Shown: positions 33,926-40,184 of the stretch, piece by piece
Layout: every line of letters starts with the position of its first letter
How positions within the stretch are numbered: position 1 is the stretch's first letter
Notes under the pieces: model-generated
Told to the model about the DNA's origin: nothing
Databases searched by the model: none
Seen by the model: only the letters and a program-made list of their open reading frames with translations
Source of the DNA: Aliarcobacter trophiarum LMG 25534
Lineage (GTDB): Bacteria; Campylobacterota; Campylobacteria; Campylobacterales; Arcobacteraceae
Length of the DNA: 64,000 nt
Assembly: GCF_003355515.1 (NCBI RefSeq)
Contig: NZ_CP031367.1
Location: forward strand, 1,488,001 to 1,552,000
Direction of reading: 5' to 3'
Program-made: the position numbers and the translations under genes

Positions 33926-36043
33926 TTATTTATAATGCATATTTTTGTAGCCTTCTAGCCTTTTTCTATAAGTAGAGTTAAGCATAGGATTTCTAAAATC
34001 TAAAAAATCAATAGCCAAACACTCTTGATTTCCACGCCCAATTCTTCCTAAATATTGAATTAATCTTCCATAAAAAGATATAGGTGTTGCAAATATTATA
34101 GTGTTTAAATGAGGAAAATCTATCCCCTCTCCAAAAAAGGAGCTAGTTGCTAATATTAGTGAGCTAGTTTTTACTTTTTGCATATTTTCTACTTGCTCTT
34201 TTTTATTTTGGCTTCCATGAACACTCACAAAATCTATATTTTGCTCTTTTAATATATTTTCCAAAAGGTTTAAGTGCTCTATTCTATCACTTAAAAGCAA
34301 TATTTTTCTATTTTGATGCTCTTTTATCGTTTCTACTATTTGTCTATTTCTATCTTCATTTGAAACTAGCTCATTTATAATTGCTGCATAATTATCAGCA
34401 CTACTTGTAAACTCTGTCTTTATTACAAGAAGTTTATTTGTGTGAGTTTTTGGTTTTTTATACTCATAAGAGATACTTCCTAATTGCTGGTATAAAATAG
34501 GATCAAGCTCATCTTTTCTATTTGGTGTTGCACTAAGTCCTAAAATAAACTTTCCACAAAAATTTTTAACAATCTGTTCAAAGGTAAGAGCTGGAATATG
34601 ATGACACTCATCAACAATCACTTGTGTATAATTTTTTACTAATTCAGGGCTATTATTTAAGCTTTGCATTGTAGCTATATCTATATTCCCATTAAGACTA
34701 TTTTTGCTTTTTCCTAAAAAACCAATATCGCTCTTTTTGTATCCAAAATAGTCAACAAAACGGCTAATCCACTGGTCAAGTAACATATTTTTATTTACAA
34801 TTATAAGGGTTTTTACAGCTCTTTTCTCAAATATTTTTGCACCAATTAAAGTCTTTCCAAATCCAGGAGGTGCCACACAAATTGAACTATCATATTTCAA
34901 AATCTCTTTTATGGCATCCTCTTGCTCTGGTCTTAGAGTAAACTGAACTTTTTTTGTATCTATTTTTTCATAAACTCTATAATCTTTAATCTCATATTTA
35001 ACTAAATTATAGTTTAAATACAAAAAAAGTTTCTCCTTTAAACCTCTAGGAAGTGTTAAAAAATCTCCACTCTCTTCATAACCTTTTAAATATTTTGGAG
35101 TATTATATAGTGGTTTTCTAAGGCTAAGTAGAAGTTTTATTTGAGGATTTTCAAAACTTGCAAATGATTTTAATTTACTTATAAAACTCTTTGACAAGCT
35201 TTGTATTGGAAATTTTATTCCACTATCTAAAACTATTTGAAAACTATTTTGTGGAAAATCTACAGTTTTTAAATCTTTTTCAATATTTTGTGGCTTTAAA
35301 ACTTGTGCAAAACTATAAATCTGCTCTTTAGATGCTTTATTTATATTTGCAAGATAGTTCCACTGATCATGAAAAATCTTTTTCTTATTAATATCTAAAA
35401 AAACTGTACTATTTTTATCTCTATACTTTAACTGCAAAGGTAGTTCTATATATGAACCTAATTTTTCTTTTGTTGAAAACTCACTATTTGGATAGAGTTT
35501 TGCACTAATGTTTGCTTTTTTTTGTAAAAAATATACAAAGCTATATGAGATTTTTGAACTTATCTTTTCTTCAAAAAATATCCAAGCAAAAATTGACTTA
35601 TATGAACTTAAAGAGTATGAAGCTGGAATATTTAACTCACTTAAAGCCCTTTGAAGTTTAAAAACATCTTCACTATTTAACTCCAAAACAACATAAGAGC
35701 ACTCTTGATTTCTATCTATTAAATATGAAGCTAAAAAGATATTTCCTCTTAAATGTTCTTCTAAATCTTTATTTGTAAGAGGCAAAAAGTCATCACCCAT
35801 AAATGTTTTAGTAACAGCAGAGAAGCCCTCTTTACTTCCATCTTTACTCTTCCACTTTTTTGCATATATATCAGCTCTATTTACAAAAGTTTCTCTAAAT
35901 AGATCTATTTTTTCATCTTTTGTAAACCTTTTTCTATCTAATACTTTTTGATTTTTTATATGCTCTTCTAGCTCTTTTATCTTTGTTTCTAGTTGTTGTT
36001 TCTGAAAATATAGCTCTTCTAACTCTTTCTCAACACTTCTCAT
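33926..36043 (-). CDS. DEAD/DEAH-box helicase with degenerate TOTE/AEP primase-like N-terminal domain
   Basis: 705 residues. A coiled coil (1-35) leads to KDEKIDLFRETFVNRADIYAKKW-type sequence, which matches the start of the primase-like domain of TOTE conflict-system proteins and extends to about residue 240 (LGSYIELPLQLKYR, FHDQWNYLANI). The expected catalytic Asp-x-Asp is replaced (VVLELNS) and the Gly-x-Gly-x-His motif is lost (SSYKSIFAWIFF), so priming activity is unlikely. The SF2 motor is intact: PPGFGKT (near 391), DECHH (near 478), LSATPNR and YLGRIGRG. It overlaps folC by 14 bases. A role in DNA repair is inference. Confidence 0.75.
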   Translation of the reverse strand: MRSVEKELEELYFQKQQLETKIKELEEHIKNQKVLDRKRFTKDEKIDLFRETFVNRADIYAKKWKSKDGSKEGFSAVTKTFMGDDFLPLTNKDLEEHLRGNIFLASYLIDRNQECSYVVLELNSEDVFKLQRALSELNIPASYSLSSYKSIFAWIFFEEKISSKISYSFVYFLQKKANISAKLYPNSEFSTKEKLGSYIELPLQLKYRDKNSTVFLDINKKKIFHDQWNYLANINKASKEQIYSFAQVLKPQNIEKDLKTVDFPQNSFQIVLDSGIKFPIQSLSKSFISKLKSFASFENPQIKLLLSLRKPLYNTPKYLKGYEESGDFLTLPRGLKEKLFLYLNYNLVKYEIKDYRVYEKIDTKKVQFTLRPEQEDAIKEILKYDSSICVAPPGFGKTLIGAKIFEKRAVKTLIIVNKNMLLDQWISRFVDYFGYKKSDIGFLGKSKNSLNGNIDIATMQSLNNSPELVKNYTQVIVDECHHIPALTFEQIVKNFCGKFILGLSATPNRKDELDPILYQQLGSISYEYKKPKTHTNKLLVIKTEFTSSADNYAAIINELVSNEDRNRQIVETIKEHQNRKILLLSDRIEHLNLLENILKEQNIDFVSVHGSQNKKEQVENMQKVKTSSLILATSSFFGEGIDFPHLNTIIFATPISFYGRLIQYLGRIGRGNQECLAIDFLDFRNPMLNSTYRKRLEGYKNMHYK

Positions 36044-37202
36044 AAGATATTAGCTCCAAAAATCTCTCAACAACCAAAAAAGAGCCAAAAACTAAATACT
36101 CGTTTTCCAAATCCATTGATAGCTTTTCAATCTCAACAATTTGCAACTTTTTTATACACTTTTGTAAAATATCTTTTTTTACAATTCGTTTATCATCTAA
36201 ATCTAAAATAAAAATCTCTTTTACAATTGGTTTTAATACTTTTAAAACTTCTTCATAATCTTTATCTTCGTAAGAGTTATAAATTAGAGTTATTTGTCTA
36301 TTTTTAAACTCCTCTTTTATAACTTTTGCTGCCAAAGAGTTATGTCCAACATCAATATATAAGTTTTTTGCAATTTTTTGACATCTTCCAAAAAGTGGAG
36401 TTGTGTTAAAAATCTCAAGATTTATAGGATTATTCCTAAAAAATGGCAACTCTTCTAAACATCTAATACAAAGTGCCAAATTTCTTTTTAGATATGAAGC
36501 AAAAACAAAATCATAATCTATATCAAAATTTTCAACTTTTAGAATTTCAATATCTCTATTAAACTCTTGTTTTAACTCATCTTTTACTTTTTCTGCAACT
36601 TTAAAAACCTCTTTAAACTCTTGATAACCTATTATCATCTTTGCATTTGTTGCTCTCATTTTTGTTTTTGCAATTTTTTCTATACTATCTCCCAAAAAAG
36701 AGATATGATCTAGTCCAATAGTTGTAATTAAACTTATATCATTTTTTACAACATTTGTAGCATCAAACTCACCACCTAGTCCAGCTTCAAGTACCAAATA
36801 GTCACAATCTTTACTTAAATAAAGAGCTAAAAGTGTTGTATATTCAAAATATGTAAGCTTTTGAAGTAAACCTTCATCATAAATATTAATTAAGAAATTA
36901 TGAGCATTTTGTAGTAAATTATCACTAACATCAGCTCCATTTATCCAAATCCGTTCATTAAACTTTTTTATATGTGGAGAGCTATAATGTAGGGTTTTAA
37001 ATCCAGTTTTATATAAATAATGAGATAGAAATCTTCCTGTGCTTCCTTTTCCATTTGTTCCAACAATATGAATAACAAATGGAATTTTTATCTCTTTTTC
37101 CAAAATAGAGAAAGCTTTATTTACAAAGCTAAAATCTATTTTGTCATAATACATAGTTTTATGTTCTAAAAAACCACTTAAAGATTTTGTTTTTAAACTC
37201 AT
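36030..37202 (-). CDS. folC: Bifunctional folylpolyglutamate synthase / dihydrofolate synthase
   Basis: Adds Glu to dihydropteroate and then to folates. It has 390 residues. The ATP loop is VGTNGKGSTGRF (about residues 47-58), followed by YSSPHIKKFNERIWING, EAGLGGEFDATNV and TTIGLDHISFLGD. The C-terminal ligase domain has DVGHNSLAA. It starts two bases after lptE and overlaps the helicase by 14 bases, part of the leuS-lptE-folC unit shared with Campylobacter. Confidence 0.95.
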   Translation of the reverse strand: MSLKTKSLSGFLEHKTMYYDKIDFSFVNKAFSILEKEIKIPFVIHIVGTNGKGSTGRFLSHYLYKTGFKTLHYSSPHIKKFNERIWINGADVSDNLLQNAHNFLINIYDEGLLQKLTYFEYTTLLALYLSKDCDYLVLEAGLGGEFDATNVVKNDISLITTIGLDHISFLGDSIEKIAKTKMRATNAKMIIGYQEFKEVFKVAEKVKDELKQEFNRDIEILKVENFDIDYDFVFASYLKRNLALCIRCLEELPFFRNNPINLEIFNTTPLFGRCQKIAKNLYIDVGHNSLAAKVIKEEFKNRQITLIYNSYEDKDYEEVLKVLKPIVKEIFILDLDDKRIVKKDILQKCIKKLQIVEIEKLSMDLENEYLVFGSFLVVERFLELISYEKC

Positions 37203-37204
37203 TT

Positions 37205-37717
37205 TTATTGAAAAGAACCAACTGCAACTCTTGAAAGCAAGTCAGTAACTGCCATATCACTAGCTTTACTTATAGCTTCAAATCTTTGTGTATCATTTAT
37301 AGTAGTTCCAATATCTATAGCAAAATCATATTCTCCATCAACTGTAAAACTCTTTGTTTTTGATGTCGATTTATCTAAATATTTAACTCCCAATACAACT
37401 TTTGCTTTATATAGTTTATTATATCCATCTTTGTCATACTGTAAAGTAGAGAAACTAACACTTGAAATTCTTAAGTCCATTATAATATCAGCTTCTACTT
37501 CACTATCAACCATATTTGAACCAACTCTTTGAATTAGAATTTTTGTAACAGCATCTTTTACTAAAACAGAGTTTTTTGGATCTGCTGGACTTACATCCAA
37601 TCTTACATATAAATCTTTTCCTAGCTCTTGTTTTGCATAATATGTAGATGGTCTATATCCACAAGCTACAAAAAATAGAGCCACAAATATGACAAATAGT
37701 GATTTTGTAACTCTCAT
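37205..37717 (-). CDS. lptE: LPS assembly lipoprotein LptE
   Basis: A 170-residue lipoprotein. The lipobox FFVAC has Cys19, followed by GYRPSTYYAKQELG. The body (SVLVKDAVTKILIQRVG, DIIMDLRISSVSF, AKVVLGVKYLD) fits the LptE alpha/beta sandwich. It plugs the LptD barrel that inserts LPS into the outer membrane. The position between leuS and folC is that of lptE in Campylobacter, and lptE also follows leuS in E. coli. Sequence similarity in this family is weak, so context carries weight. Confidence 0.8.
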   Translation of the reverse strand: MRVTKSLFVIFVALFFVACGYRPSTYYAKQELGKDLYVRLDVSPADPKNSVLVKDAVTKILIQRVGSNMVDSEVEADIIMDLRISSVSFSTLQYDKDGYNKLYKAKVVLGVKYLDKSTSKTKSFTVDGEYDFAIDIGTTINDTQRFEAISKASDMAVTDLLSRVAVGSFQ

Positions 37718-37718
37718 T

Positions 37719-40184
37719 TTATACCTTGATTACTATATTTACTAATTTTTTTGGAACAACAATCTCTTTTAAAATAGTTGCACCTTCAAGCCACTTTTTA
37801 GCTTCACTTTTTGCAATATCTAAAACCTCTTCATTTGTAGCATTTATACTAACTTCAATTTCAGCTCTTTTTTTACCATTTATTGTAACTGCTAAAACTA
37901 TACTATCTTGTACAAACACTTCATTTTTTATCTCTAAAGGTTTTGAAAAATTCTCTAAATTAAAGTATCTATTTGATAACTCCCAACTAGTATGTGGAAT
38001 AATTGGCTCCAATATATTTGTCAAAATATAGTAAGCTTCTGCCCAAATAGCCTCATTTTTTTGAGCTTGTAAAGAGTTCATAGCTTCCATACAAGAAGCT
38101 ATTAGAGTATTAAAAGCATAAGTCTTATTTAAAACCTCATTTGATTTTTGTAAAGCCTCATAAACTTTCTTTCTAGCCTCTTTCTCCTCTTTGTTTAAAG
38201 AGTTTTGATCTATACTCTTAAAATTTTCAAGACCTGTTTGTGTTATATTGCTAGCTCTTTCATAAAATCTTTTTATAAATTTATAAGCCCCTTCAACAGC
38301 ACTATCATTCCACTCTAGCTCTTTTGTAGGAGGTGCTGCAAAAAGGATAAACATTCTTGCTGTATCAGCTCCATACTTCTCAACAAGCATATCTGGATCT
38401 ACAACATTTCCCTTGCTTTTACTCATTTTTGCACCATCTTTTAAAACCATTCCTTGAGTAAGTAGATTTTTAAATGGCTCACTTGAGTTTGTATATCCTA
38501 AATCTTTTAAAACTTTTGTGAAAAATCTTGCATATAAAAGGTGTAAAATAGCATGTTCTATTCCTCCAATATATTGATCAATATCCATCCAATAATCACT
38601 ATCTTCTTTAGAAATTCCCTCTTCTTGCCACTTTTTATAATTTGTAGCATATCTTAAAAAATACCATGATGATTGCACAAAAGTATCTAAAGTATCTGTT
38701 TCTCTTGTAGCTTTTTCTCCACATTTAGGACAAATACAATTTTTCCAAGTAGGATGTGAATCTAATGGATTTCCTTCACCTGTAATTTCTACATCATCAG
38801 GAAGAGAGACAGGAAGATTTTCTATTTTTTCAGGCACTAAACCACAAGCTTTACAATGTACAAAAGGAATAGGAGCTCCCCAATATCTCTGTCTTGAAAC
38901 TCCCCAATCTCTCAATTTATAATTTATTTTTCTATTTCCAAAAGAGTTTTGCTCAAAATGATAAATAATAGCCTGTTTTGCATCTTGGCTTTTTAGATTT
39001 GAGAAAGCTTCACTATTTATCAAAACTCCATCTTCTACATATGCCTCTTTTTGTTTCTCTATAAAGCCATTTTCTCCAACGATAACTTGTTTTATTGGTA
39101 AATCATATTTTAAAGCAAACTCAAAATCTCTTTGGTCATGAGCTGGAACTGCCATAACTGCGCCATCACCATAAGAACTTAATACAAAATTTGCAACCCA
39201 AATTGGAATAGTTTGTCCAGTTAGTGGATGAATTGCCTCAATTTCTAAATCCACCCCCTCTTTCTCTTGCATAGCTCTATCTTTTTGTGCAATTTTTTGC
39301 ATATTTCTAATAGCATTTAACTTATTTTTTGGTAATAGCTCTTTTTCCACTAAATATTTTACTATAGGATGCTCAGGAGCTAAAGCAGTATATGATACGC
39401 CATAAATAGTATCAGGTCTTGTTGTAAATACACTAAAACTTGCAAACATTTTATCAAGTTTTGCCCTTGTCTCTTTTGTAACATCAAATTTAAACTCTAA
39501 GCCCTCGCTTCTTCCAATCCAGTTCTCTTGCATAGTTAAAACTTGTGAAGGCCATGAGTTTTCAAGTAGTTTTAAATCATCAAGTAAAGTTTGCGCATAT
39601 TTTGTAATTGCAATATAATATCCAGGCATCTCTCTTTGAACAACTTCATTATCACATCTCCAACAACAGCCCTCAACAACTTGCTCATTTGCCAAAACAG
39701 TTTGACAATCATTACACCAGTTAAGAGCTGCATTTTTTCTATACAAAATTCCAGCTTCATACATTTTAATAATAAACTCTTGCTCAAATTTTGTATAGAG
39801 TTCATCACTAGTTGCAAACTCTTGATTTTTACTAAAAGATAGTCCTAAACTTCTTAACTCTTCTCTCATATAATCAATATTTTCATAAGTCCACTTTTTT
39901 GGGTGAAGCTTATTTTTAATTGCTGCATTTTCAGCAGGCATTCCAAAACTATCCCACCCAATAGGATGAAGAACATTGAAACCATTTTTTCTAAAATGCC
40001 TAGCAAAGGCGTCGCCTAAACAGTAGTTTCTTACATGTCCCATATGAATTCTTCCACTAGGATATGGGAACATACTTAAAATATATTTCTTTGGTTTTGA
40101 AAAATCATAACTTGGTTCAAAAGAGCTATTGTCTATCCAAAATTTTTGCCACTTTTTTTCAATATCTTTTGCCAAATACTCCAT
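37719..40184 (-). CDS. leuS: Leucine--tRNA ligase
   Basis: Class I aminoacyl-tRNA synthetase of 821 residues. The HIGH-type motif [10 protein letters not shown] is near residues 44-53 and KMSKSKGN near 586. The CP1 editing domain includes [13 protein letters not shown] and the zinc region has [13 protein letters not shown]. It overlaps the upstream small membrane gene by one base (TAATG) and precedes lptE by one base. Confidence 0.98.

Follow-up and report, generated by a model that had tools for sequence, protein, structure and literature searches.

The closest described systems are the TOTE-type primase-helicases (PF22548), which have a coiled coil, an AEP domain and an SF2 helicase in the same order as the protein reported here; intact copies from Campylobacterota are about 39% identical to it. 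CAPP (CRISPR-associated Prim-Pol) proteins of the CAPP-helicase type and their non-CRISPR relatives on mobile elements share the AEP fold and the arrangement of a Prim-Pol followed by a helicase. The D177/D179 pair of CAPP is essential and changing the motif I Asp pair in MpCAPP abolishes activity (PMC8211822). DUF1882/HP0184 (PDB 2ATZ) is a chromosomal AEP subfamily of the Campylobacterales with partly degenerate motifs (PMC8065100), and its AEP fold was noted earlier (PMC3397514 table, PMC8065100). The protein encoded in our window, the 64,000-nucleotide stretch of Aliarcobacter trophiarum LMG 25534 that was analysed, differs from the TOTE-type proteins in that it lacks the catalytic motifs, is inherited vertically and lies outside a mobile or defence neighbourhood. 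Compared to CAPP it lacks the active-site Asp pair; furthermore, no direct-repeat array was found within 26-46 kb of the locus and the scanned neighbours are not Cas genes. DUF1882/HP0184, unlike our protein, is a stand-alone protein of 180 aa without a helicase, keeps the motif II His and was not found in Arcobacteraceae.

The gene is a minus-strand open reading frame of 705 aa with its ATG at 36043, and the plus strand across the same interval contains stops throughout. Table 1 gives its domains, motif sites and upstream neighbours. The preliminary description had proposed a TOTE-type primase-like domain in the N-terminal part, and the stretches that it quoted (SYIELPLQ, DQWNYLA and LFRETFVNRADIYAKKW) are all found in the translation. 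The profile search agrees: AEP-TOTE matches residues 44-244 at 1.6e-45 with 155.9 bits (cut-off 27), covering profile positions 1-229 of 230, and the 1.92-Mb genome has no other PF22548 match. Residues 368-671 match the Pfam families ResIII, DEAD and Helicase_C. The region between the two domains may correspond to the damage-recognition domain of XPB. The name folC is putative, as it follows the preliminary description and likeness; the Pfam match is to Mur_ligase_M only.

Table 1. Features of the pseudo-primase/helicase gene and its neighbours (positions in the window)
Feature	Position	Strand	Remark
Whole gene, 705-aa pseudo-primase/helicase	33926..36043	-	Stop codon 33926-33928
N-terminal coiled coil, residues 1-36	35936..36043	-	Also present in forms without the AEP domain
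AEP-TOTE primase domain, residues 44-244	35312..35914	-	Catalytic motifs lost
Motif I D-x-D site, residues 121-123	35675..35683	-	E-L-N
Motif II His site, residue 152	35588..35590	-	F152
Shortened motif III segment site, residue A181	35501..35503	-	Intact copies: GIDMxSYDR
Pre-helicase alpha/beta region, residues 265-360	34964..35251	-	Within the portion kept by AEP-less forms
SF2 helicase core, XPB/UvsW-like, residues 361-705	33929..34963	-	Motifs intact
Walker A, residues 391-398	34850..34873	-	APPGFGKT
folC-like Mur-ligase family gene	36030..37202	-	14-nt overlap with helicase start
lptE	37205..37717	-	
leuS	37719..40184	-	

The AlphaFold model of the whole protein (38 homologues) reached a mean pLDDT of 86.8 and a model of the AEP part alone (residues 36-262) a pLDDT of 90.7. 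For the latter the best PDB matches were six CAPP Prim-Pol chains (top match 5.5e-15, TM about 0.73), followed by HP0184, LigD-Pol, RepB' and S-2L PrimPol. The predicted structure thus places the domain in the AEP superfamily, as had been supposed from the letters. The helicase half of the full model is nearest to archaeal XPB (1.1e-21) and then to T4 UvsW. Its motifs GFGKT, DECHH, SATP and QYLGRIGR are intact with key residues invariant across the 38 homologues, which agrees with the earlier reading of an intact SF2 half, and Walker A/B, SAT and motif VI assign it to SF2 by sequence. Despite the structural likeness to XPB and UvsW the reading frame scores far under the equivalog cut-offs for XPB (NF045503, 65.1 bits against 610) and RadD (62 against 720).

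The primase active site has been lost. At motif I the D-x-D pair is replaced by E121-x-N123, the motif II His by F152, and at motif III the GIDMxSYDRMFPNQD of intact copies is reduced to ISAKLYPNSEF with the Asp gone. Intact relatives read VIDLDK and SKSGNGIHIWYFF at the first two motifs and the window copy reads VLELNS and SSYKSIFAWIFF. The alignment to intact copies therefore upholds the claim that the catalytic Asp pair and the His were replaced. A misplacement of the catalytic acids was ruled out, as the crystallised CAPP Prim-Pol (7nqd) and one intact relative (L033) align at the motifs. Counted over 34 full-length vertical copies, the first motif I Asp is replaced by E in 28, by K in five and by Q in one. 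All 34 copies are without the second motif I Asp and without that of motif III; the motif II His is absent in 31 and kept in three. The set of motifs of an active primase-polymerase (I DxD/E, II sxH, III hD) is not present.

All full-length copies that we read outside the vertical clade kept every motif. They come from Sulfurimonas, Sulfurovum, Sulfurospirillum, Bdellovibrionales and others, and include 13 of 13 copies from plasmids or plasmid collections (Aliarcobacter, Arcobacter, Escherichia, Pantoea, Agrobacterium, Dinoroseobacter, Lacticaseibacillus, Bradyrhizobium, Acinetobacter and actinomycetes). That homologues share the substitutions thus holds across the Arcobacteraceae but not across the Campylobacterota, whose few other copies are intact. 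One intact-type plasmid copy (L078 in G305, matching the Aliarcobacter faecis plasmid NZ_CP053838.1) is interrupted by stop codons. No relatives were found on viral contigs; in phages the helicase half alone was matched, with no record covering 80% of an intact copy.

An orthologue was present in 92 of 104 Arcobacteraceae genomes and in 80 of the 88 good assemblies; the 12 genomes in which the gene was not found include some incomplete ones. Among named records the family genera are Aliarcobacter, Arcobacter, Poseidonibacter, Malaciobacter and Halarcobacter, the nearest being A. cryaerophilus with 88%. Across 249 genomes of the class we otherwise saw the helicase half only in sporadic intact primase-helicases. 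Both the intact and the vertical kind occur together in some genomes, for example in Arcobacter vandammei. In the helicase tree all vertical copies lie on one side of a single branch (support 99/97). Within this clade a genus with a truncated AEP domain (g4) and L052 branch off first, followed by a clade of 11 AEP-less sequences (support 100/99) and then the rest. The LeuS tree gives the same branch order in outline, with some weakly supported forks, and pairwise helicase and LeuS distances agree (rho 0.90). This agreement rules out a recent transfer of the window copy, and the trees indicate vertical chromosomal descent within the Arcobacteraceae. Read on the LeuS tree with its partly weak forks, the absences of the gene appear to be secondary losses.

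The AEP-less proteins have a 30-residue coiled coil fused directly to the pre-helicase region, and the deletion, a precise one, therefore took what corresponds to residues about 34 to 265 of the window's protein. A helicase-only ancestral state was ruled out, as these proteins are nested inside AEP-bearing lineages in both trees. Since the AEP domain was deleted in one clade and truncated in one genus, it is unneeded for the core job of the helicase. Taking into account that the whole gene is unseen in 12 of the 104 genomes, no essential step depends on the AEP module. Two MAGs (L156, L176) that bear the titles Helicobacter pylori PMSS1 and Desulfosporosinus carry an AEP-less Arcobacteraceae helicase; these titles look wrong.

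These losses raise the question of whether the dead domain is a weakly constrained relic that persists only by folding within the same polypeptide and is heading for loss. In-frame stops or breaks were seen in a few genomes (G292, G355; L162), and in the vertical clade the divergence rate of the AEP domain was about 1.5 times that of the helicase compared to 0.9 times in intact copies, so some relaxation is real. The substitution patterns argue the other way. Pairwise omega of the dead AEP domain was 0.05-0.24. Codon models gave 0.053 for the AEP domain and 0.046 for the helicase in a clade within the window's genus; in two other genera the values were 0.031 and 0.023 and in intact copies 0.038 and 0.038, although saturation in AT-rich genomes may depress these ML values. 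Fixing omega at 1 was 446 log units worse (window's-genus clade, kappa then fixed at 2). Furthermore 34 AEP positions are nearly invariant in the vertical clade and the domain is kept over most of the family. The net charge of the domain is more positive there (mostly +3 to +7 compared to +1 to +3 in intact copies). A pseudogene was ruled out, as almost every genome has an unbroken reading frame and omega is far below 1. We therefore regard a mere relic as unlikely. The values show purifying selection on the domain, in keeping with a non-catalytic role that has persisted.

The gene comes after leuS, lptE and folC in most family genomes. The preliminary description had the gene fixed next to folC in an operon. 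This is correct for some genera, among them the window's genus with its 14-nt overlap, but not where a peptidase M23 gene and a bactofilin gene intervene between folC and the helicase (read in L040). In an AEP-less genus (g2; L059, L153) the helicase was relocated and adjoins der/engA. The chromosomal surroundings are those of housekeeping genes rather than a defence island, as had been stated, and the mobile or defence setting of a TOTE conflict system is not seen. Intact relatives on Arcobacter and Aliarcobacter plasmids adjoin AbiEii and other intact relatives adjoin integrases, C5 methylases and AAA_14 ATPases. On Arcobacter and Aliarcobacter plasmids or islands (L179, L190, L191, L079, L080) the intact primase-helicase lies close behind an AbiEii-type toxin gene, and the same pair occurs in Sulfurimonas (L141) and Sulfurospirillum (L140).

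Such neighbours of the relatives, together with a match to the PADLOC PrimPol model (3.2e-31), would suit a protein that still acts against mobile elements and has become chromosomal and immobile. We give this little credence, as no defence genes adjoin the window copy and the family copies lie in the leuS-lptE-folC or der neighbourhood (a location that is not decisive alone) and descend vertically. That the AEP domain keeps enzymatic activity through a rebuilt active site that draws on E121 and other acids is very improbable: the E at this position in 28 copies means that one metal-binding acid may remain, but the other motif residues are gone as counted above, the loops bearing them have become shorter, positions 123 and 152 hold widely varying residues among the vertical copies and CAPP is inactive without its motif I pair (PMC8211822).

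DUF1882 offers a further comparison. HP0184 of H. pylori matches PF08966 and, barely above the cut-off, PF22548; compared with the pseudo-AEP profile DUF1882 reached 97.6% probability and it is also matched by the AEP-only model. Copies from other Campylobacterota (L054-L058, L192-L221) show D-x-N at motif I, the His kept and the motif III Asp lost. We found DUF1882 in 240 of 298 class genomes and in none of the 104 Arcobacteraceae genomes searched. This presence and absence amounts to one clade contrast and shows no functional link. It is a rather doubtful proposal that non-catalytic AEP domains are a standing chromosomal function in Campylobacterota, in which one DNA-binding role would be filled by DUF1882/HP0184 in most families and by the tamed TOTE-type helicase instead in Arcobacteraceae. 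PriX was dropped as an inactive AEP paralogue, as it relates to PriL (PMC6393858).

We consider it likely that a mobile primase-helicase was tamed once in the ancestor of the Arcobacteraceae and now serves as a DNA translocase whose AEP module is non-catalytic. A mobile element protein of the AEP-TOTE / CAPP-helicase type would have been captured in the stem of the family, into or near the leuS-lptE-folC operon, and its primase active site would have been lost before the family radiated. The gene would then have become a vertically inherited chromosomal helicase, in which the AEP fold was long retained as a non-catalytic module and later lost in one branch. By analogy with XPB and UvsW the protein would be an ATP-driven double-strand DNA translocase or helicase acting in repair or fork remodelling, and translocation on double-stranded DNA in repair is most likely its role. 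Charge and conservation suggest DNA binding or positioning as the most likely task of the AEP module, and the coiled coil at the N terminus probably serves for oligomerisation or docking.

The family appears to hold a resolved series from a mobile primase-helicase to a housekeeping helicase. Intact copies occur on plasmids in the same genus, most genera carry a primase that is dead but conserved, and a truncation and a clean deletion complete the series. This series would allow one to test what use a primase fold has once priming is gone and how the helicase of a mobile element becomes a cellular one.
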